This document shows, in pieces, positions 54,937-64,000 of a DNA stretch of 64,000 nucleotides. The DNA is taken from positions 922,693 through 986,692 of the forward strand of contig NZ_LRFG02000002.1 of NCBI RefSeq assembly GCF_001641755.2. The letters are read 5' to 3'. The notes beneath the pieces were generated by a model. The model was given only the letters and a program-made list of their open reading frames with translations. It ran no database searches and had not been told where the DNA came from. Numbering within the stretch: position 1 is the stretch's first letter; each line of letters opens with the position of its first letter. The position numbers were made by a program, and so were the translations under genes. The stretch is from Microbulbifer flavimaris. Lineage in GTDB: Bacteria > Pseudomonadota > Gammaproteobacteria > Pseudomonadales > Cellvibrionaceae.

Positions 54937-55638
54937 TCAGGCATTCTTCAGGTTGCTTTCGTGCCCGTGGCGGATATCCGCACCTTCCACCAGGTACACC
55001 ACCTGCTCGCAGATATTCTTGGCATGATCTCCGATGCGTTCCAGTGAACGCAGAGTCCACAGCACGTTCATGACACGGGAAATACTGCGCGGGTCTTCCA
55101 TCATATAGGTGACCATCTCACGCACGGCGCTGCGGTAATCCATGTCCACCTGCTCGTCCTCGGCCAGGGTGCTCATCGCCGCTCTTACGTCAAAGCGGGT
55201 ATAGGCATCCAGAGCGTCATTCAGCATCTTGCGCACGGCGTTGGCGATATGGCGAATCTCGGTATAGCCGCGGGGAGCAGTCCCTTCGTCGGTCAGGGCG
55301 ATGGCCATCTTGGCGACCTTGCTGGCCTCGTCGCCGACACGCTCAAGATCGCGGGCGATGCGGATGATGGACATGACCATGCGCAGGTCAGAGGCAGCCG
55401 GCTGGCGCTTGGCAATGATCAGCGTGGCGTGCTCGTCAATGGCCATTTCCCGCCGGTCGATCTCCTCTTCGATGCGCAGCACTTTTTCTGCCAGCTCGCT
55501 GTCAGCGTTGGCCAGGGCCTCCACCGCGTCGGCAACCTGGCGGGTAACCATACCGCCCATCTCCAGCATCTCGGTTTTGATGCTCTCGAGATCTTCGTTG
55601 AACTGGCGGGATATATGTTGATCGAAATGCATTTCCAT
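54937..55638 (-). CDS. phoU: phosphate signalling protein PhoU
   Basis: PhoU links the Pst transporter to PhoR and keeps the Pho regulon off in phosphate-rich cells. The 233-residue protein has two similar three-helix halves with the metal-binding E/DxxxD motifs (MEMHFDQHISRQFNEDLESIKTEM; RDLERVGDEASKVAKMA; RSLERIGDHAKNICEQVVYL). It is the last gene of pstSCAB-phoU, 40 bp after pstB, and is followed by an intrinsic terminator. Confidence 0.96.
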   Translation of the reverse strand: MEMHFDQHISRQFNEDLESIKTEMLEMGGMVTRQVADAVEALANADSELAEKVLRIEEEIDRREMAIDEHATLIIAKRQPAASDLRMVMSIIRIARDLERVGDEASKVAKMAIALTDEGTAPRGYTEIRHIANAVRKMLNDALDAYTRFDVRAAMSTLAEDEQVDMDYRSAVREMVTYMMEDPRSISRVMNVLWTLRSLERIGDHAKNICEQVVYLVEGADIRHGHESNLKNA

Positions 55639-55678
55639 AATTTGTTCGCTTCTGTTAGCGCAATACTAGTCCAACGGA

Positions 55679-56560
55679 TCAGCCGAAGCGGCCAGTGATG
55701 TAGGCCTCGGTCAGCTCATGCTGCGGGTTGGTAAAGACCGTCTCTGTATCGTTCACTTCCACCAGGTGACCCAAGTGGAAATAGGCAGTGCGCTGACTGA
55801 CCCGGGCTGCCTGTTGCATGGAGTGGGTGACGATGGCGATGGTGTAGTTCTCTCGCAGCTCGTCGATCAGCTCCTCGATGCGGGCGGTGGCGATCGGGTC
55901 CAGGGCAGAGCAGGGCTCGTCCATCAGGATCACTTCCGGGCTGACAGCAATTGCACGGGCGATACACAGGCGCTGCTGCTGACCGCCAGACAGTCCGGTG
56001 CCGGGCTTGTCCAGCCGGTCTTTTACTTCATTCCACAGGCCCGCACGGCGCAGGCTGTTCTCGACGATCTCATCCAGCTCGGCGCGACGGCTGGCGATAC
56101 CGTGAATCTTCGGGCCGTACGCGACATTCTCGTAAATGGACTTGGGAAAGGGGTTGGGCTTCTGGAATACCATGCCCACCCGCGCGCGCAGCGGCACCAC
56201 GTCGACTTTCGGGCCGTAGATGGGATCGCCATCGAGAGTGAAGTCACCCTCAACGCGACAGCCGTCGATGGTGTCATTCATACGATTCAGGCAACGCAGG
56301 AAGGTTGACTTACCACAGCCGGAGGGACCGATCATGGCAACCACTTCATTGCGGCCAATATCCAGGCTTACATCGTGAATGGCCTGGGTCTCGCTGTAGA
56401 AGACGTTGACGTTGCGCATCTTCAACTTTGCATTGTCGCAGAAGGGTGCGCCGACGGTTTCGCCCACTTTGGTCTGGCTATCCACAGTCTTTTTTTCCAC
56501 GGTTTGGGGGTTAGCCGGCTCGCTGTAGCCGGTGGCATCCAGGGTCATGGTGTTCATCAA
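55679..56560 (-). CDS. pstB: phosphate ABC transporter ATP-binding protein PstB
   Basis: PstB powers phosphate import. The 293-residue protein has Walker [10 protein letters not shown] (78-86), signature [14 protein letters not shown], Walker [14 protein letters not shown] and switch His in VTHSMQQA. A 45-residue N-terminal extension precedes the ABC domain ([24 protein letters not shown]). It follows pstA by 22 bp. Confidence 0.97.
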
Positions 56561-56582
56561 GTTGATCCCAGTCTATCAGCCG

Positions 56583-57869
56583 CTACCAGCGGCGCTCGAG
56601 TTTTTTGCGCAGCAGTACTGCACTGGTGTTCATCACGATCAGGAAGCTCAGCAGCACCATGATCGCGGCGGAAGTGCGCTCGACGAAGGCGCGCTCCGGG
56701 CTGTCAGCCCACAGGAAAATCTGTACCGGCAGTACCGTAGCCGGATCAGTGATGCCGGCCGGTACGTCGACAATAAAGGCCACCATACCGATCATCAGCA
56801 GCGGTGCGGTCTCACCCAGGGCCTGCGCCATGCCGATAATGGCGCCGGTGAGCATGCCCGGCATCGCCAGTGGCAGCACGTGGTGCAGGACCACCTGCAT
56901 GCGCGAGGCCCCCATGCCCATGGCCGCCTCGCGGATGGACGGCGGTACGGACTTCAGGGCGGCGCGGCTCGAAATAATGATGGTGGGCAGCGTCATCAGG
57001 GTCAGCACCAAACCACCGACGAGTGGCGCCGAACGGGGCAACTCGAAGAAGTTGATGAAAATGGCCAGACCCAGCAGGCCGAACACGATGGACGGTACCG
57101 CGGCGAGGTTATTGATGTTCACCTCGATCAGGTCGGTCCAGCGGTTCTTCGGTGCGTACTCTTCCAGATAAATAGCCGCAGCCACACCGATGGGGAAGGA
57201 CAGCGCCAGTGTCACCAGCAGGGTCAGCAGGGAGCCCACCAGAGCCGCGCGGATACCCGCCTGCTCCGGCTCACGGGAGTCACCGTTGGTGAAGAAGGTG
57301 GTATTGAAGCGCTTTTTCAGCTCTCCACTGTCCCACAGGGTCTGCACCCAGGCGGCCATCTCGTCGGAAGTACGGCCGCGGAAACCCTCAGCGGAATCGT
57401 CGAGACTCTTGAGGAAAGTATCCACGTCATCATCCGCAGCAAACCATACCTTCTCGGTCTGCCCGAGCAGGGCCGGATTTGCCTGCAGTCGGTCGCGCAG
57501 GGTGAAGGGCGCCCCGGTAGAGACCAGGGAATAGAGCTCGCGCTTCTCGCTGCGGCCGCTGACCCCGGGAAAACGCTCGCGCAGGGATTGGCGAATGACA
57601 CCGGTAAAGTTGGCCCAGGTGAGACTCTCTTCGTTTACCTCCTCGATCCCCAGCACCGCAGGGTCGTAGGTGACTTCCAGCTGTACCGCAGTCTGTACGA
57701 ACGCGCCGCTGCCCTTGCTGATAATGTCAGTGAAGAGCAACAGTACGGCAAAGACACCGAAGGCGATGCTGGCAATACCAAGGCCACGAAACAGTTTTTC
57801 CTTGCGGTGCCGACCGGCGAGATTCTGCTCGATCCGCTCGCGCACCTGTGCTTGTGTCAGATCAGTCAT
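56583..57869 (-). CDS. pstA: phosphate ABC transporter permease PstA (long form)
   Basis: PstA forms the inner-membrane channel with PstC. The 428-residue protein is longer than the about 296 residues of E. coli PstA: after the first helix (about 32-54) it has a periplasmic insert of about 150 residues before the BPD-type permease helices (about 205-425). The permease EAA loop is near EAAMGMGASRMQVVLHHVLP. It overlaps pstC by eight bases. Confidence 0.95.
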   Translation of the reverse strand: MTDLTQAQVRERIEQNLAGRHRKEKLFRGLGIASIAFGVFAVLLLFTDIISKGSGAFVQTAVQLEVTYDPAVLGIEEVNEESLTWANFTGVIRQSLRERFPGVSGRSEKRELYSLVSTGAPFTLRDRLQANPALLGQTEKVWFAADDDVDTFLKSLDDSAEGFRGRTSDEMAAWVQTLWDSGELKKRFNTTFFTNGDSREPEQAGIRAALVGSLLTLLVTLALSFPIGVAAAIYLEEYAPKNRWTDLIEVNINNLAAVPSIVFGLLGLAIFINFFELPRSAPLVGGLVLTLMTLPTIIISSRAALKSVPPSIREAAMGMGASRMQVVLHHVLPLAMPGMLTGAIIGMAQALGETAPLLMIGMVAFIVDVPAGITDPATVLPVQIFLWADSPERAFVERTSAAIMVLLSFLIVMNTSAVLLRKKLERRW

Positions 57870-59241
57870 ACTGTTCCCGATATTTTTTCACGACATGCAG
57901 GGCGATAAAATTAAGAATCAGGGTGGACACGAACAGCATCAGGCCCAGGGCGAAGGCCGCCAGGGTTTTCGGGCTGTCGAATTCCTGGTCACCCACCAGT
58001 AGGGTCACAATTTGCACCGTAACGGTAGTGACGGAGTCCAGCGGGTTGGCGGTCAGGTTCGCGGCCAGGCCCGCGGCCATCACTACGATCATGGTTTCGC
58101 CAATGGCCCGGGAAACCGCCAGCAGTACACCGCCTACAATGCCCGGCAGCGCCGCCGGAATCACGACCTTGCGCACGGTTTCCGAATGGGTGGAGCCAAG
58201 GCCCAGTGCGCCGTCGCGCATGGACTGTGGTACCGCATTGATCACATCATCTGATAGCGACGAAACGAACGGAATAATCATCACCCCCATCACCAGGCCA
58301 GCGGCCAGGGCACTTTCACTGGAGGCCTGCAGGCCAACCGCTGCCGCCGCTTCACGGACGAAGGGTGCAACCGTGAGGGCGGCAAAAAAGCCGTAAACCA
58401 CCGTTGGTACACCGGCCAGCACCTCAAGTACCGGCTTGGCGACCGCGCGCAGACGCTTGCCGGCATATTCGGCCAGATAAATCGCGGACATCAGGCCCAC
58501 TGGCACCGCCACGAACATGGCAATCGCAGAGACCATCAGGGTACCGGTGAACAGAGGCACCGCACCGAAGGCGCCGCTGGAGCCCACCTGGTCGGCGCGC
58601 AGGGCCATCTGCGGACTCCACTGCAGGCCAAACAGGAACTCTGTGACCGGTACCGACTGGAAGAAACGCAGGGATTCAAACAGCACCGACAGCAGAATGC
58701 CGACTGTGGTCAGGATGGCAGCCGAGGCACAGCCAATCAGAATAACGCGGAAAACCTTTTCCACTTTCTCCCTTGCACGCAGCTTGGGAGAAAAGCGCAA
58801 CATGGCAAAAGCACCAAGACCCAGCGACAGGATCAGGACCATCGCGGTTTGCAGGAGCTGGGCACCGCCACGCAAATGGGTAAGCCGCTCAGCAGCCTCC
58901 TTTACCTGGGGAGTTGCCTCTCCAAAGAAGTTACCGGCGGCCTGGTTCTGTATCTGGGCGTAGAGCAGGTCGCGACCGGCCATGGTATCCGGCATATCGG
59001 CGATGCCGTTCATCACCAGCGCGCGGATAATTGGCTCATCGAACATCAGCCACACCGCCAGCAACAGCAGTGCGGGTAGTCCACACCACAGTGCGGTATG
59101 AGTGCCGTAATAACTGGGCAGAGCCGCCAGCTTGCGCATCCCGCCACGCCCCCGGGCAGCGGCAGCCGCGCGACTGAAACCGGTGCCGTAGGCGATCAGG
59201 ACCAGCAGCAGCAACAGGGCAAATAAAGTAGGAGTCTGCAT
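57862..59241 (-). CDS. pstC: phosphate ABC transporter permease PstC (long form)
   Basis: The partner permease has 459 residues; E. coli PstC is about 319. It has two helices in the first 65 residues, a region with AGNFFGEATPQVKEAAERLTH, then permease helices with the EAA loop GALGLGSTHSETVRKVVIPAALPGIVGG. The long form with extra N-terminal helices is found in Pseudomonas relatives. It lies 160 bp downstream of pstS, separated by a hairpin. Confidence 0.95.
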   Translation of the reverse strand: MQTPTLFALLLLLVLIAYGTGFSRAAAAARGRGGMRKLAALPSYYGTHTALWCGLPALLLLAVWLMFDEPIIRALVMNGIADMPDTMAGRDLLYAQIQNQAAGNFFGEATPQVKEAAERLTHLRGGAQLLQTAMVLILSLGLGAFAMLRFSPKLRAREKVEKVFRVILIGCASAAILTTVGILLSVLFESLRFFQSVPVTEFLFGLQWSPQMALRADQVGSSGAFGAVPLFTGTLMVSAIAMFVAVPVGLMSAIYLAEYAGKRLRAVAKPVLEVLAGVPTVVYGFFAALTVAPFVREAAAAVGLQASSESALAAGLVMGVMIIPFVSSLSDDVINAVPQSMRDGALGLGSTHSETVRKVVIPAALPGIVGGVLLAVSRAIGETMIVVMAAGLAANLTANPLDSVTTVTVQIVTLLVGDQEFDSPKTLAAFALGLMLFVSTLILNFIALHVVKKYREQYD

Positions 59242-59330
59242 TTAAATTCCGTGCGTTCGGTATTACAGGCCGCGGATTATCCCGGCTTTTTAAGTCTTTT
59301 AAACGACCGCGAATTGCGGCCCCTCAACTA

Positions 59331-59361
59331 CAAGAAAAGCCAAGCCCTCGCGGGCTTGGCT
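59331..59361 (-). terminator. attenuating terminator between pstS and pstC
   Basis: A perfect 10-bp stem AGCCAAGCCC / GGGCTTGGCT with a 4-nt loop is followed on the minus strand by TTTTCTT. It lies about 40 bp past the pstS stop and probably lets only part of the transcripts continue into pstCAB-phoU, which would keep PstS more abundant than the permease. Confidence 0.75.
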
Positions 59362-59401
59362 GGTAAATCCATCTACCTGTTTTTTTACTGCCTAATCGAT
59401 C

Positions 59402-60454
59402 TTATTTTTTGGCCAGGTTGCTCAGGGCGTTCAACTGACGCACATTCTTGGCAACTTGCTGACGCTTGGAAGTCGGCAGCGGGATCATGCCCTTGTCGGC
59501 CAGGTAGCCGTCCTCACCCCAGGCGCGCTCGCTGGTGATCTCGGCCAGGAATTGCTTCATGCCCGGGATCACATTCGCGTGCGCTTTTTTCACGTAGATG
59601 AACAGCGGGCGGGAAACCGGGTAGCTCTGCTCGGCGATGCTATCAAATGTCGGCTGCTCACCTTCGATGGTGGAACCGTGCACCTTGTCCGCATTCTGAT
59701 CGAGGAAGCTGAAGCCGAAGATGCCCAAAGCATTCGGATTGGCCACCAGCTTGTTGACGATCAGGTTGTCGTTCTCGCCGGCTTCCACGTAAGCGCCGTC
59801 TTCACGGACGGTGTGGCAGATGGCCTTGTAAGCATTCTTGTCTTCTTTCTTCTTGGCGGCGATCCAGTCGAACTTCTTGCAGCCCCCTTCCATTGCCAGC
59901 TCGGCAAACGCATCGCGGGTACCGGAAGTGGGGGGCGGGCCGAGGACCTCGATCTTCACATTCGGCAGCGCCGGGTTTACGTCCTTCCAGGTCTTGTAGG
60001 GGTTCTCGACCAGGGTCTCGGAGCCGTCCGGGTTCGGCACTTCCTTGGCCAGGGCCAGGAAGATGTCTTTACGGGTCAGGTCAAAAGTCTCGGCGCTCTT
60101 GGCGTTGGCCAGCACGATACCGTCATAGCCCACCTGAACTTCCACCACGTCGACGCCGTTCTCTTTACACATATCCAGTTCGGACTGCTTGATACGGCGG
60201 GAAGCGCCGGTGATGTCGGCAGTGCTCTCGCCAACGCCCTGGCAGAACAGCTTCATGCCGCCGCCGGTACCGGTGGATTCAACGACCGGGGTCTTGAACT
60301 GGGTCGCACGGCTGAAACGCTCGGCCACGGTGGTGGTGAACGGGTAGACGGTGGAAGAACCGACGATGCTGATATGATCACGGGCTGCGGTGGCCGCCTG
60401 AGATGCGGCGATGGTCAGAGCCGCCAGGGATGAGGCCAGGATTCGCTTGTTCAT
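59402..60454 (-). CDS. pstS: phosphate-binding protein PstS
   Basis: PstS is the periplasmic phosphate receptor of the Pst transporter. From ATG 60454 it has 350 residues: a signal peptide (MNKRILASSLAALTIAASQAATA), the phosphate-binding loop IVGSSTVYPFTTTVAERF, TGTGGG, and GTRDAFAELAMEGGC. The start has GGAG upstream. It heads the operon and is preceded by Pho box-like repeats. Confidence 0.95.
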   Translation of the reverse strand: MNKRILASSLAALTIAASQAATAARDHISIVGSSTVYPFTTTVAERFSRATQFKTPVVESTGTGGGMKLFCQGVGESTADITGASRRIKQSELDMCKENGVDVVEVQVGYDGIVLANAKSAETFDLTRKDIFLALAKEVPNPDGSETLVENPYKTWKDVNPALPNVKIEVLGPPPTSGTRDAFAELAMEGGCKKFDWIAAKKKEDKNAYKAICHTVREDGAYVEAGENDNLIVNKLVANPNALGIFGFSFLDQNADKVHGSTIEGEQPTFDSIAEQSYPVSRPLFIYVKKAHANVIPGMKQFLAEITSERAWGEDGYLADKGMIPLPTSKRQQVAKNVRQLNALSNLAKK

Positions 60455-60516
60455 GGAGAACTCCAATGTGTGCTTTTGTTTCAGCGGCGATGCTAGGAAC
60501 AACGGGTGACGATTCT

Positions 60517-60552
60517 ATGAATGAAATGTGACAAAAAGGTTACATGACACTG
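60517..60552 (-). promoter_or_regulatory. Pho box region upstream of pstS
   Basis: On the minus strand TTGTCACATTTCATTCAT (60534-60517) matches 13 of 18 positions of the Pho box consensus. Just before it GTGTCATGTAAC (60551-60540) contains another TGTCAT half. They lie 63-98 bp upstream of the pstS start. Confidence 0.6.
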
Positions 60553-60642
60553 ATCGGGGCGCTGGGACCAGTACTGGCGCCAGATTCGCGCCGGCGTTAG
60601 TCTTTGCAAACAGAACAATAAGATGTAGAGAGAGACTTCCCC

Positions 60643-61221
60643 ATGCCCCCCCTGGTCCGCCTCGCCCGGCAAATTGACCGTCTGGCCACAGCCACTGGCA
60701 GCCTGCTCGGCTGGTTCACCCTCGCCATGGTGCTGCTGCAAAGCGCCGTTGTGCTCCTGCGCTACGGCTTCGACGGCGGCTCTGTAGCCCTGCAGGACGC
60801 AGTGCTGTATCTGCACGGTGCCGTCCTGATGCTGGGCCTGGCCTATGCACTGCATACCGACGCCCACGTACGGGTGGATGTCTTTTACCGGCGGATGTCC
60901 GCCCGGTCACGGGCCTGGGTCAACGCCGTAGGCACCCTGGTATTCCTGTTGCCTCTCTGTGCATTCATCATTCTCGGTAGCTGGCATTTCACCACCGCCA
61001 GCTGGGCGGTGCGCGAATCCAGTTCCAGCGCCGGAGGCCTGCCCGGCATTTTCCTGCTCAAGACCCTCATCCCCCTGTCGGCGCTGACCCTCGGTCTGCA
61101 GGGTATCGCCCAGCTGTGCCGCAGCCTGACGGAGCTGATGCTGGTGGAAACAACCCCGCCAGCACCCCGCGCCCCCACTGATGAACCGCGGGCCAGGGCG
61201 GTCGAGGAGGTGAGCGCATGA
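60643..61221 (+). CDS. TRAP transporter small permease (DctQ family)
   Basis: The 192-residue protein is the small membrane subunit of a tripartite ATP-independent periplasmic transporter. It has four helices (about 20-40, 55-72, 93-113, 133-155) with the conserved GWFTLAMVLLQSAVVLLRYGFDGGSVALQDAVLYLHG block. AGAGAGAG upstream is a good ribosome site. It overlaps the large permease gene by four bases (ATGA). No periplasmic binding protein gene is adjacent in this window. Confidence 0.9.
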   Translation: MPPLVRLARQIDRLATATGSLLGWFTLAMVLLQSAVVLLRYGFDGGSVALQDAVLYLHGAVLMLGLAYALHTDAHVRVDVFYRRMSARSRAWVNAVGTLVFLLPLCAFIILGSWHFTTASWAVRESSSSAGGLPGIFLLKTLIPLSALTLGLQGIAQLCRSLTELMLVETTPPAPRAPTDEPRARAVEEVSA

Positions 61222-62579
61222 TGGAGCTGGTTCCCCTGCTGATGTTTATCGCCGTCTGCGCGGCGCTGATGTTCGGTTACCCTGTGGCCTTCACCCTCGG
61301 CGGCACGGCGCTGCTGGCCGCCGGACTGGGTATCGTGGCCGGTGTATTCGATGCCGAACTGCTGCGGGCTTTCCCTGACCGGCTGTTCGGCATCATGCAG
61401 AACGGCACCCTGATGGCGGTGCCGCTGTTCGTGTTGATGGGCGTGATGCTGGAGCGGGCGCGCATCGCCGAGGAATTGCTGGTCAACCTGGCCCGGGTTT
61501 TCTCCCGCGTGCCCGCGGGAATGGCGGTGTCGGTGGTGGTGGTGGGTGCGCTGCTGGCAGCGAGCACCGGTATTGTCGGCGCCACCGTGGTGACCATGGG
61601 CCTGATGTCCCTGCCCACCATGCTGAACCGGGGCTATTCGCCGCGGCTGGCCACCGGCACCATCTGTGCAACCGGCACGCTCGGCCAGATCATTCCGCCG
61701 TCCATCGCCCTGGTGCTGCTGGGAGACACGCTCTCCAATGCCTACCAGCAGGCCCAGCTCTCGGCCGGTATCTTCAACCCCAAGCCGGTCAGCGTCGGCG
61801 ACCTGTTTGTGGGCGCCATTATCCCGGGGCTGCTGCTGGTGGCGGCTTACATCATCTACCTGCTGTTCGTGGCCCGGCGCGAGCCGGCGGTAGCGAAGCC
61901 GACTGCGGAGAGTATCGACCTGGCAGAGACCCTGAAAAGCCTGGTGCCGCCCATCGGCCTGATGGTGCTGGTACTGGGCTCCATCATCACCGGTGCCGCC
62001 ACCCCCACCGAAGCTGCTGCCGTTGGCGCCCTGGGGGCGGGGATTCTGGCAGTGAGCCGCGGCGCCCTGAACTGGGACCGTGCCGGCGAGGTAGGGCAGA
62101 GCACGCTCAAGGTCACCGCCATGGTATTTGCGATCCTGATCGGCGCGTCGCTGTTCTCGCTGGTATTCCGCGGTTACGACGGCGAGGAGCTGGTCACCCA
62201 TTTCTTCAATAGCCTGCCCGGCGGCGTCATCGGTGCCACGCTGCTGGTAATGGTGGTGATCTTCCTGCTGGGCTTTATCCTCGACTTCATCGAGATCACC
62301 TTCGTGGTGGTGCCGATTGTCGGGCCGGTGCTGCTGGCCATGGGCGTCGACCCCATCTGGCTGGGCATCATGATTGCCATCAACCTGCAGACCTCGTTCC
62401 TGACCCCGCCGTTTGGCTTTGCGCTGTTCTACCTGCGCGGCGTGGCCCCGGAATCCGTGGCCACCGGCGCCATCTACCGCGGCGTGGTGCCGTTCATCAT
62501 GATCCAGCTGCTGGTGATGGCGCTGCTGGCGCTGTGGCCGTCGCTGGCGACCTGGCTGCCGGGGTATCTGGCGAATTGA
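61218..62579 (+). CDS. TRAP transporter large permease (DctM family)
   Basis: The 453-residue protein is the channel subunit with about twelve helices and the DctM motifs ASTGIVGATVVTMGLMSLPTML and GTLGQIIPPSIALVLLGD, ending LGFILDFIEITFVVVPIVGP and TSFLTPPFGFALFYLRGV. The ending fits TRAP systems of the mannitol/chloroaromatic (TAXI-like excluded) type; the substrate is unknown because the binding protein is missing here. It is followed by the cassette region. Confidence 0.92.
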   Translation: MMELVPLLMFIAVCAALMFGYPVAFTLGGTALLAAGLGIVAGVFDAELLRAFPDRLFGIMQNGTLMAVPLFVLMGVMLERARIAEELLVNLARVFSRVPAGMAVSVVVVGALLAASTGIVGATVVTMGLMSLPTMLNRGYSPRLATGTICATGTLGQIIPPSIALVLLGDTLSNAYQQAQLSAGIFNPKPVSVGDLFVGAIIPGLLLVAAYIIYLLFVARREPAVAKPTAESIDLAETLKSLVPPIGLMVLVLGSIITGAATPTEAAAVGALGAGILAVSRGALNWDRAGEVGQSTLKVTAMVFAILIGASLFSLVFRGYDGEELVTHFFNSLPGGVIGATLLVMVVIFLLGFILDFIEITFVVVPIVGPVLLAMGVDPIWLGIMIAINLQTSFLTPPFGFALFYLRGVAPESVATGAIYRGVVPFIMIQLLVMALLALWPSLATWLPGYLAN

Positions 62580-62689
62580 GGGGGATGCCCGAACTTAAAA
62601 GCCCTGGCCGGGTGATGGGGATTGTTTAAAGGCGATGAGCGTGGCCAACAAGCGCCCAAGCCCGGTGATCGTGAGCAAACAATATGGCG
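62580..62689. other. gap between the TRAP operon and the cassette region
   Basis: I see no gene. A 7-bp inverted repeat, ATTGTTT (62621-62627) and AAACAAT (62677-62683), spans the stretch but lacks other attC features. Confidence 0.4.
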
Positions 62690-62809
62690 TGGTAACGCCG
62701 CGTTCAGGAGCGGCCGAAGCAGCGGACTATCTTGTGCGATGTCTGCGCATTCTGAACCGCATAGCGAAGGTGCACCGCTCGGCAAGCTCCCTGAACGCTT
62801 TGTTCCGCG
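62690..62809 (-). repeat. attC-like recombination site, cassette 1
   Basis: This imperfect palindrome starts 1 base past the stop codon of the HTH cassette gene. GCGTTCAGGAGC (62700-62711) pairs with GCTCCCTGAACGC (62786-62798) leaving one extrahelical base. Inside, GCCGA pairs with TCGGC and GCGG with CCGC. On the minus strand it begins GGAACAAAGCG and ends GGCGTTACC. The stem layout and length (about 120 bases) fit an integron attC; the outer core sites are only partly conserved (AAC and GTT kept). Confidence 0.65.
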
Positions 62810-63280
62810 CTACCAGACTTCGTAACGGTCGGCCGCCCTGATGACATTCGCCATGCCGTAGGCGACGACGATCATCCACAAGGGGCCCATGAACGCTTCC
62901 AGCCTGAACTCGCCCCGTACAACCATTGCTGCCAGAAGGCCTAGCGCAAATATCACGGAAAAGATCACGACCTGCTTCTCGCCCTTAACCCAGTCTTCCC
63001 GCTTGGACATACCGAGCCATCCAAACTCGGACCCGATAAAGTTGATACGAAATAACAGCGGTAGCTTCTTCCACTCGTCTGATGACTTATCGATCACACC
63101 GATCTCCTGTTCCAATGTCGAAATTTCAACCTCTAACACTGACGCAAGGGATTTCAGGGACTCCAGACCAGGTTTTTTGCCACTCTCAATGCGCTGAATA
63201 GTACGGACGTTCAGGCCACTGAGCTCCGCGAGCTGCTCTTGAGTCCACTTACGGCGTTTCCTTACTTTTTTAAGATACAC
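62810..63280 (-). CDS. XRE-type HTH protein with two membrane helices (cassette gene)
   Basis: The 156-residue protein has a Cro/C1-type helix-turn-helix at about 5-58 (RKRRKWTQEQLAELSGLNVRTIQRIESGKKPGLESLKSLASVL), a linker with EWKKLPLLFRINFIGSEFGWLGM, and two membrane helices at about 105-122 and 128-146. This HTH-plus-2TM architecture is often seen in integron cassettes. It starts at GTG 63280. The stop codon touches an attC-like site. It is more AT-rich than its chromosomal neighbours. The function is unknown. Confidence 0.8.
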   Translation of the reverse strand: MYLKKVRKRRKWTQEQLAELSGLNVRTIQRIESGKKPGLESLKSLASVLEVEISTLEQEIGVIDKSSDEWKKLPLLFRINFIGSEFGWLGMSKREDWVKGEKQVVIFSVIFALGLLAAMVVRGEFRLEAFMGPLWMIVVAYGMANVIRAADRYEVW

Positions 63281-63349
63281 AGTTCTATCTCTTGCTATCA
63301 GTCGAACAGGATTTTGATCTCACGTCCCAACTGTCGGCCACGAAATTCA

Positions 63350-63389
63350 CCCGAAATGGACCCGACATGGGCCCGAAATCGACCCGACA
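63350..63389. repeat. 22-bp direct repeat in the cassette 1 leader
   Basis: CCCGAAATGGACCCGACATG (from 63350) and CCCGAAATCGACCCGACA (from 63372) repeat with a period of 22 bases, within the leader between attC site 2 and the HTH gene. A role in promoter or regulator binding is possible. Confidence 0.6.
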
Positions 63390-63437
63390 GCAGCATTTTT
63401 GAGCCAGGGGGTCTACTAAACGTGGGTATGTCTTATT

Positions 63438-63529
63438 CCTAACGACCGGCTTTGGGGCAGACTTGGAGCCGCGCAGCGGCGGAAAGGATGTCCCAGCCCC
63501 GCAGGGGCGATAACAGCCGTTTGTTAGAG
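63438..63529 (-). repeat. attC-like recombination site, cassette 2
   Basis: The outer arms CTAACGACCGGCT (63439-63451) and AGCCGTTTGTTAG (63515-63527) pair with two mismatches. Inner pairs are GGGGC (63454) with GCCCC (63496), GAC with GTC, and a GCCGC-GCA-GCGGC apical stem. The core sites CTCTAAC and GTTAGGA fit RYYYAAC and GTTRRRY at six of seven positions each. The site lies 10 bases past the stop of the gene at 63540-63890, the normal position of an attC in a cassette. Confidence 0.8.
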
Positions 63530-63539
63530 GGTTGTCCGT

Positions 63540-63890
63540 TTAGCACTCCAACTCTCCGAAAACTAGGATGTCATCGACCTCTAATGGATAATCTAAGTCT
63601 TGTTTTATGCAAACGAACGAGCCGTCAGGTTTCACAATATGGATATCCACGACAGTTTGTCTTTTCTTACTGTGATAGAAAAAATATTTTGGAGGGTCGA
63701 AAAATCCTATTTCTTCGACACTTCCATCATAGGGATAAACCTCGACGCCATATTCAGCCGAATAGGCACGAATTGCATCCATAACATTATCGGCATCGAT
63801 ATGAAATCCCTGCCCATCATATAGTTTGGGATAATCACGAAATAGATACTGAAGCTTTTCATCGTTATCTGGGCCAATTATTTGAATCAT
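63540..63890 (-). CDS. unknown protein in a gene cassette
   Basis: This 116-residue soluble protein (MIQIIGPDNDEKLQYLF...) is not recognised. It is acidic and rich in Tyr, Phe and Asp, with repeated short beta-type segments (DGSFVCIKQDLDYPLEVDDILVFGELEC at the end), perhaps an immunity or binding protein (guess). It is much more AT-rich than the rest of the window. I chose the ATG at 63890 with AAGGG upstream; a GTG at 63914 falls in the neighbouring IS end. An attC-like site follows. Confidence 0.65.
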   Translation of the reverse strand: MIQIIGPDNDEKLQYLFRDYPKLYDGQGFHIDADNVMDAIRAYSAEYGVEVYPYDGSVEEIGFFDPPKYFFYHSKKRQTVVDIHIVKPDGSFVCIKQDLDYPLEVDDILVFGELEC

Positions 63891-63901
63891 TCCTATACCC
63901 T

Positions 63902-64000
63902 TGGTCTTACCCACAAAAAGTAGACACCATAACTATGCGCATCTGCGCTCATACTCTGCTGGACTTATGTAACCCAGTGTAGAGTGCCTACGTACCCTGT
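63902..64000 (-). mobile_element. IS3-family insertion sequence, 3' end, cut by the window edge
   Basis: The last 100 bases contain the end of an IS3-family transposase and, past its stop, a probable terminal inverted repeat (CCCACAAAAAGTAGACACC on the plus strand at 63910-63928). The outer boundary near 63902 is an estimate, about 12 bases before the start of the cassette gene. Confidence 0.7.
63933..64000 (-). CDS. IS3-family transposase (OrfB), C-terminal end only
   Basis: Minus-strand translation gives RVRRHSTLGYISPAEYERRC followed by Ala and a stop, which is the standard end of the IS3-family integrase-type transposase (the HSxLGY and SPxxYE motifs). The N-terminal part lies beyond the window. 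Whether the gene is intact cannot be seen. Confidence 0.85.
   Translation of the reverse strand, partial: RVRRHSTLGYISPAEYERRCA

Follow-up and report, generated by a model that had tools for sequence, protein, structure and literature searches.

Two probable integron-type gene cassettes beside a TRAP operon of Microbulbifer flavimaris, and an IS3-family element that probably homes to attC

What kind of genes follow a tripartite ATP-independent periplasmic (TRAP) transporter operon at the very end of a contig of Microbulbifer flavimaris, and what has happened to them there? The question concerns the right end of the window, by which we mean the whole 64,000-nucleotide (nt) stretch analysed (G000:C2:922693-986692, G000 being a 3.64 Mb draft genome of 30 contigs); contig C2 stops at the final base of the window, 64000. 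A preliminary description had proposed that two genes in this region are cassettes with attC-like sites. We consider it likely, with a probability of about 0.9, that they are the last two cassettes of a chromosomal integron-type array, which an integrase encoded elsewhere in the genome would recombine and which has been invaded by an insertion sequence (IS) of the IS3 family that likely homes to attC. Integron integrases work on the bottom strand of attC in its folded form, with the crossover at G/TT of the R' core, and a gene together with its attC can exit as a circle and re-enter at attI or attC. The two cores follow the rule RYYYAAC for R'' and GTTRRRY for R'.

The attC sites and their cassettes

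The cassettes comprise the following features, where R1 is the covariance model described below.

62690..62808, minus strand: attC site 1, of the helix-turn-helix (HTH) cassette (R1 21.5 bits, E-value (E) 0.0027 in the window)
62696..63442, minus strand: predicted extent of the HTH cassette, from G/TT to G/TT crossover point, inferred from the two R' positions
62810..63280, minus strand: HTH cassette gene, encoding a 156-amino-acid (aa) XRE-type HTH protein (PF01381, HTH_3, 54 bits)
63437..63529, minus strand: attC site 2, of the 116-aa cassette (R1 50.0 bits, E 8.5e-11 in the window)
63440..63901, minus strand: the 116-aa cassette as it recurs in genome G040 (462 bp, 96.1% identical)
63540..63890, minus strand: orphan cassette gene of 116 aa, open reading frame (ORF) from ATG

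A simple scan for core consensus and arm pairing proved unspecific, ranking site 2 only fourth on the plus and eighth on the minus strand of the window, and a covariance model was therefore used instead. The model, R1, was built from 21 attC sites of this genome (contigs C1 and C6) and of genomes G021, G018 and G011, with the window excluded; since the training sites were chosen by searching for the pattern AACAA ... GTTA plus paired arms, it is biased towards sites of that appearance. In the training alignment the outer R helix was paired in 78% of the cells and the L helix in 94%, all eight L-helix pairs changed on both sides in some sequences, and covariation reached 0.512 compared to 0.136 in shuffles. 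Over the full 64 kb only two matches were obtained up to E 10, both on the minus strand and each directly after a stop codon, while 32 stretches around dctM in relatives (244 kb, partly overlapping) gave no match at E <= 0.1. The model matches thus sit at both places where an attC-like structure had been described at a gene's stop, and the scores, on which the preliminary description had let its reading depend, lie above background for both sites. A scan of positions 55000-64000 against Rfam returned nothing at the gathering threshold and one chance match (PhrS, E 6.4).

The cores of site 2, CTCTAAC (R'') and GTTAGGA (R'), each agree with the consensus at 6 of 7 positions, as had been stated earlier, and those of site 1, GCGGAAC and GTTACCA, are clearly degenerate. 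Folded as single-stranded DNA, site 2 reached -22.7 kcal/mol (z-score (z) -2.5) on the plus strand, which is the bottom strand of the cassette, and -19.2 kcal/mol (z -1.8) on the other strand. The corresponding values for site 1 were -25.8 kcal/mol (z -1.5) and -24.3 kcal/mol (z -0.9), and with a z of only -1.5 the folding by itself is insufficient proof of this site.

Each gene is found again, joined to its attC, at an unrelated locus of another genome, and judged from these sequences both are likely mobile gene cassettes of the integron type. The HTH protein has 1200 homologs, the best named one being 81% identical in Microbulbifer agarilyticus, and 6 of 48 congeneric genomes, including the present one, contain its gene at E 1e-15. 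Its closest homolog, in G038 (80% protein identity), has an attC (42.1 bits) downstream of its stop codon, at an offset equal to that in the window; the DNA of the two genomes is 79% identical over 564 columns, from 63368 to the stop, after which attC comes, and the remaining flanks differ, which makes 62810 to 63368 plus attC the recurring unit. Beside this cassette in G038 (L258:2353-2753), two ORF fragments resemble a decayed integron integrase, as judged by eye.

The 116-aa gene is present in 2 of the 48 genomes, its own and G040. There, the shared 462 bp are bounded by the edge of the IS (63901) and the inside of the R' core of site 2 (63440), the attC (49.2 bits) lies at the same offset as in the window, and the gene belongs to a longer array with six further same-strand model matches within 3.3 kb. 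The protein itself fell into one cluster only, 99% identical, in a search of 5.8 billion proteins; it matched no Pfam, NCBIfam or PHROG family, and no relative appeared in a genome-contig search, where near-own records may be left out. A weak PADLOC match to LmuA (E 0.0052) was obtained, and the single-sequence structure prediction was unusable, with a predicted local distance difference test score (pLDDT) of 39.9. An alternative 124-aa version of the ORF has its GTG start inside the IS end. The genes had been described as two AT-rich genes on the minus strand: both ORFs are present, and with G+C contents of 39.0% for the 116-aa gene, 52.0% for the HTH gene and 61.8% for the window, the term fits the former, but the latter only in relative terms.

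The insertion sequence and where it inserts

The cassettes are accompanied by parts of an IS, whose ends (63405-63434 and 63902-64000) the preliminary description had overlooked.

63405..63434, minus strand: IS3-family left-end remnant of 30 nt with 90-93% identity to the left end of the element, separated from the 7-nt R' of site 2 by 2 nt
63898..63901, minus strand: AGGG, likely target duplication of the window IS copy, as judged against the empty site in G040; its left counterpart is past the contig end
63902..64000, minus strand: IS3-family right end with the last transposase codons, matching the full copy at G000:C2:794148-795420 at all 99 bases

The IS is 1.26 kb long with inverted ends, and its full copy at G000:C2:794148-795420 (L008) encodes OrfA/OrfB with a DDE transposase (NF033516, IS3, 315 bits at a cut-off of 160; PF00665, rve); its Pfam and NCBIfam matches include no IS110 model. 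In G040 an empty counterpart of the insertion site is found, in which the attC preceding the 116-aa cassette ends GTTAGAGGG and is followed by TATAGG; in the window, the corresponding sequence reads IS right end, AGGG, TATAGG. Most likely, the IS copy thus went in 9 nt after the G of GTTA, duplicating AGGG, and from the same comparison the left flank of the window copy is predicted to be GTTANAGGG.

The position of the IS relative to attC was assessed across the genus, of which 26 of the 48 genomes gave matches (with 8 candidates scored in each, copy numbers are lower bounds). The hits bearing a left end, selected by reading of the match list, gave a set of 65 left ends with 65 different 30-base flanks from 22 genomes, L010 and the window included. 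GTTA was located at exactly -9 to -6 before the left end in 49 of the 65, in 21 of the 22 genomes, and a same-strand attC model match ended exactly 2 nt before the IS in 40, all of which (40/40) are oriented in the cassette direction. Counted as misses among the 65 are L202 (+), which is probably an inverted repeat of the right end, and the doubtful L253; L205, with only 53 upstream bases, is unable to show an attC. An exact 4-base target duplication flanked 7 of the 16 full copies (L189, L191, L195, L196, L202, L203 and L216), a count from which L009, consisting of two remnants 1.3 kb apart, was excluded.

The same preference was seen outside the genus. In an order-wide search the transposase was matched at E 1e-90 in 10 of 293 genomes, including the own genome and the same-genus G041, and 13 loci besides the own copy were read, 12 of them from other genera. 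The left end was visible in nine of the 12, with GTTA at -9 in eight of these nine (five genera) and a model attC 2 nt before the IS in five; the G041 locus has GTTG in place of GTTA.

Since the copies lie mostly at one fixed position after an attC or a GTTA core, the IS likely homes to integrons. More specifically, we think it rather probable that an IS3 lineage present in Microbulbifer and other genera of the order homes to attC, with a transposase that reads the 3' half of the site, possibly as a folded strand, and inserts 9 nt past the crossover G in the cassette direction. Arrays would then serve the element as a safe harbour and cassettes as a vehicle, and its left end may remain as the leader of a cassette gene. 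Insertion 9 nt past the G of R', that is, GTTANNNNN followed directly by the IS, would leave the attC core intact and put the element into the leader of the following cassette. There it would be nearly harmless and could move together with that cassette. The traces of such an invasion in the window would be the right end before the 116-aa gene and the 30 bases of left end that follow site 2.

Left ends also occur as pieces of 30-120 bases before other sequence (L207, L208, L209, L247, L249, L250 and others). In the match list, short left-end matches outnumber short right-end ones, many of them at contig ends, and some of the pieces retain the IS leader with GGAGGTG and may act as leaders of cassette genes. 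At L009:2142-3449, a left-end and a right-end remnant flank two passenger ORFs at the position of the transposase. Bases 35-52 of the left end (L008 copy) form a palindrome, GTTAGG-TTTCGG-CCTAAC, which resembles facing integron cores; remnants ending at the internal core-like GTTAGG were considered as a sign of IntI use, an idea dropped with two cases (L009 and L256) among 26 loci.

Integrases, other arrays and the TRAP locus

Two intact integron integrases are encoded in the M. flavimaris genome, at C1:323251-324186 (418 bits, with a short array) and C5:179994-180935 (407.5 bits, with one attC match), at a cut-off of 265; across the 38 genomes searched, 28 contain an integrase above the curated cut-off. 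The search for intI that had been recommended gave these two, on C1 and C5, and none in the window. With at least two attC and no neighbouring integrase, the array would count in the present assembly as a cluster of attC sites lacking integron-integrases (CALIN), but the contig break may hide an integrase, and the array may instead be the end of a chromosomal integron. In G040, assembled as one contig, two integrases above the cut-off lie approximately 420 kb and more from the array with the 116-aa gene.

Other attC sites, whose absence nearby had been named beforehand as speaking against cassettes, exist in the genome. A whole-genome model scan, in which 150 of 1305 candidates were scored, gave at least 25 matches at E up to 1, corresponding to at least 22 sites after removal of opposite-strand doubles and one partial match, a count that is a lower bound. 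The clusters lie on C1 (two), C2 (three with the window), C3, C5 and C6, and no integrase match is near those at L277 (G000:C1:1084000-1091832), C3:234216-236989, C2:476626-480345, C2:851115-853280 and the C6 end (L010). As the arrays at the C1 and C6 ends run off their contigs, near-identical attC sites may cause contig breaks. The C5 integrase locus (L017 1947-3709) shares neighbours with the integrase locus of G021 (L082, G021:C3), where the integrase has an array of several cassettes running off the contig end, compared to the one attC match of its C5 counterpart. An origin in one common array was considered as well for the C5 integrase, the TRAP array and the array at the end of C1; the ORF flanking the C1-end array was not beside dctM in the stretches of 11 relatives. 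By eye, this ORF reads like acnB. A small element bounded by inverted ends (GCTGTAGAAAAACTCC) seems to lie at an attC of the sister array (L077:4470-4660).

Outside the array, and flanking it, lie the TRAP genes.

60643..62579, plus strand: dctQ and dctM (PF04290, PF06808)

These Pfam matches bear out the statement that the cassettes adjoin a TRAP operon. DctM was found in 36 of the 38 searched genomes, its best named relatives being those of M. yueqingensis and other Microbulbifer, and the similarity of the window to 23 same-genus loci breaks off at 62555-62600. An ordinary tandem arrangement in relatives, named beforehand as evidence that would speak against cassettes, is thus absent, and the genes recur elsewhere as gene plus attC. 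The closest same-genus locus is that of G021 (DctM 97%), in which the region downstream of dctM, up to the end of its own contig, contains consecutive minus-strand genes, six attC model matches on that strand and also a full IS copy. At the 22 other same-genus dctM loci, of which approximately 1.5 kb per side was examined, no attC model match was obtained; in G018 an efflux-type gene, as judged by eye, comes next after dctM.

Alternative explanations and related systems

Three other explanations were weighed. If the hairpins were ordinary intrinsic terminators or repetitive extragenic palindromic (REP)-like repeats of two unrelated single genes, the weak folding of site 1 (z -1.5) and the fourth and eighth ranks of site 2 in the core-plus-stem scan would be easily understood, but a covariance model that had not been trained on the window sites hit both (2/2) at the right places, the gene plus attC units are common to G038 and G040 at other loci, and G021 has an array at the same locus. 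By the model, the recurrence and the G021 array, this explanation is already refuted. It is also conceivable that the IS3 element is itself carried as a cassette, so that the fixed distance to attC would reflect recombination by IntI and not a choice of the transposase, as might be thought from the identical distance at all 40 attC matches and from the location of the IS inside a cassette leader. This we regard as very improbable: the 8-base stretch from the crossover point to the IS varies among copies and hence belongs to the target and not to the element, exact 4-base duplications flank 7 of the 16 full copies, these 8 bases are retained at the empty site in G040, and full copies occur away from model attC (L189, L191). 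The variable bases, the target duplications and the empty site together indicate that transposition, not the integrase, most likely placed the IS.

A more substantial challenge to attC homing is that the IS merely prefers a short sequence such as GGCGTTA, with selection against insertions into genes making attC look like the target. Ten left ends have GTTA at -9 but no model attC, the L189 copy follows GGCGTTT in a gene, and GGCGTTA occurs five times in the window, one of them in an attC (site 1). However, even on the generous guess that a quarter of the usable GGCGTTA were in attC, the 38 of 57 left ends with attC in a separate, smaller count would have a chance of approximately 1e-11, a rough probability, as the guess rests on five sites of one window. 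We consider this explanation unlikely without regarding it as negligible.

Several observations weigh against our own account of attC cassettes invaded by a homing IS. On the whole-genome scale site 1 reaches only E 0.15, close to the end of the ranked matches, and together with the degenerate cores this weak score means that the site may no longer recombine. No integrase is found in the window, and neither an integrase nor an attI was seen on contig C2, which ends at 64000; recombination of the window cassettes by the C1 or C5 integrase is a proposal. As for the IS, 25 of the 65 left ends have no model attC (-20 to 150 nt), 15 of these also lack GTTA at -9, and three of the 65 (window, L009 and L010) were found via the window itself. 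Full copies moreover exist outside attC, such as L189 within a gene, and L191 (G042), a full copy with an exact duplication, has TAAC 6-9 nt after its right end, a mirrored signal which was present in 1 of 24 right ends (L202 (+) not counted) and by which the direction of insertion may not be absolute. Next to the right end of L191 comes CTAACAA, a mirror image of the usual target; this copy may have gone in from the R'' side of an attC.

Compared with known systems, the array resembles sedentary chromosomal integrons and CALINs as described in the excerpt of the IntegronFinder 2.0 publication consulted (PMC9024848), with the same R and L boxes, small one-strand genes mostly of unknown function, an integrase in the genome and clusters without a neighbouring integrase, and no basic difference emerges from that excerpt. 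New here are the locus after dctM and the two cassettes; otherwise the array is of a known kind. An integron of 40 genes has been described in Saccharophagus degradans, formerly Microbulbifer degradans (PMC2386152, in part).

Insertion sequences at a fixed place at attC are known as IS1111-attC, for which excerpts of three articles cite Tetu and Holmes 2008 and Post and Hall 2009 (PMC11187229, PMC12444791, PMC11089894). According to the excerpt of PMC11187229, the IS1111 elements have an IS110-type DEDD transposase together with an RNA guide, whereas the present element has IS3-family OrfA/OrfB with DDE (rve), produces 4-base duplications and lies outside the core, 9 nt beyond the G of R'. The group IIC-attC introns likewise recognise attC, also in clusters without an integrase, and insert into the bottom strand at R'', in the orientation opposed to that of the cassettes (PMC7923331, in the part consulted, where the R' consensus is given as GTTRRRY). 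They are retroelements, in contrast to the present DNA transposon, which inserts after R' and in the cassette direction; the IS encodes a DDE transposase, and no Rfam match at the gathering threshold was obtained in window positions 55000-64000, a scan outside which the full IS copy lies. In the superintegron of Vibrio cholerae, an IS3-family element of 1261 bp has two copies inside cassettes, one within the coding sequence of a cassette and the other in the last cassette, and attC homing is not described in the available portion of that article (PMC11023631). Among the open-licence literature on attC with IS3 or targeting, as far as its excerpts go, IS1111-attC and group IIC-attC introns were found, and no attC-targeting element of the IS3 family.

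With these cassettes, a Microbulbifer genome joins the hosts of dispersed chromosomal cassette arrays, and an HTH regulator and an orphan gene appear as cassette cargo in more than one species of the genus. If the proposed homing is true, an IS3-type DDE transposase reading attC would be an independent invention besides those of the IS110 family and the group II introns, and it would explain why IS remnants accumulate in integron arrays and why assemblies break there.
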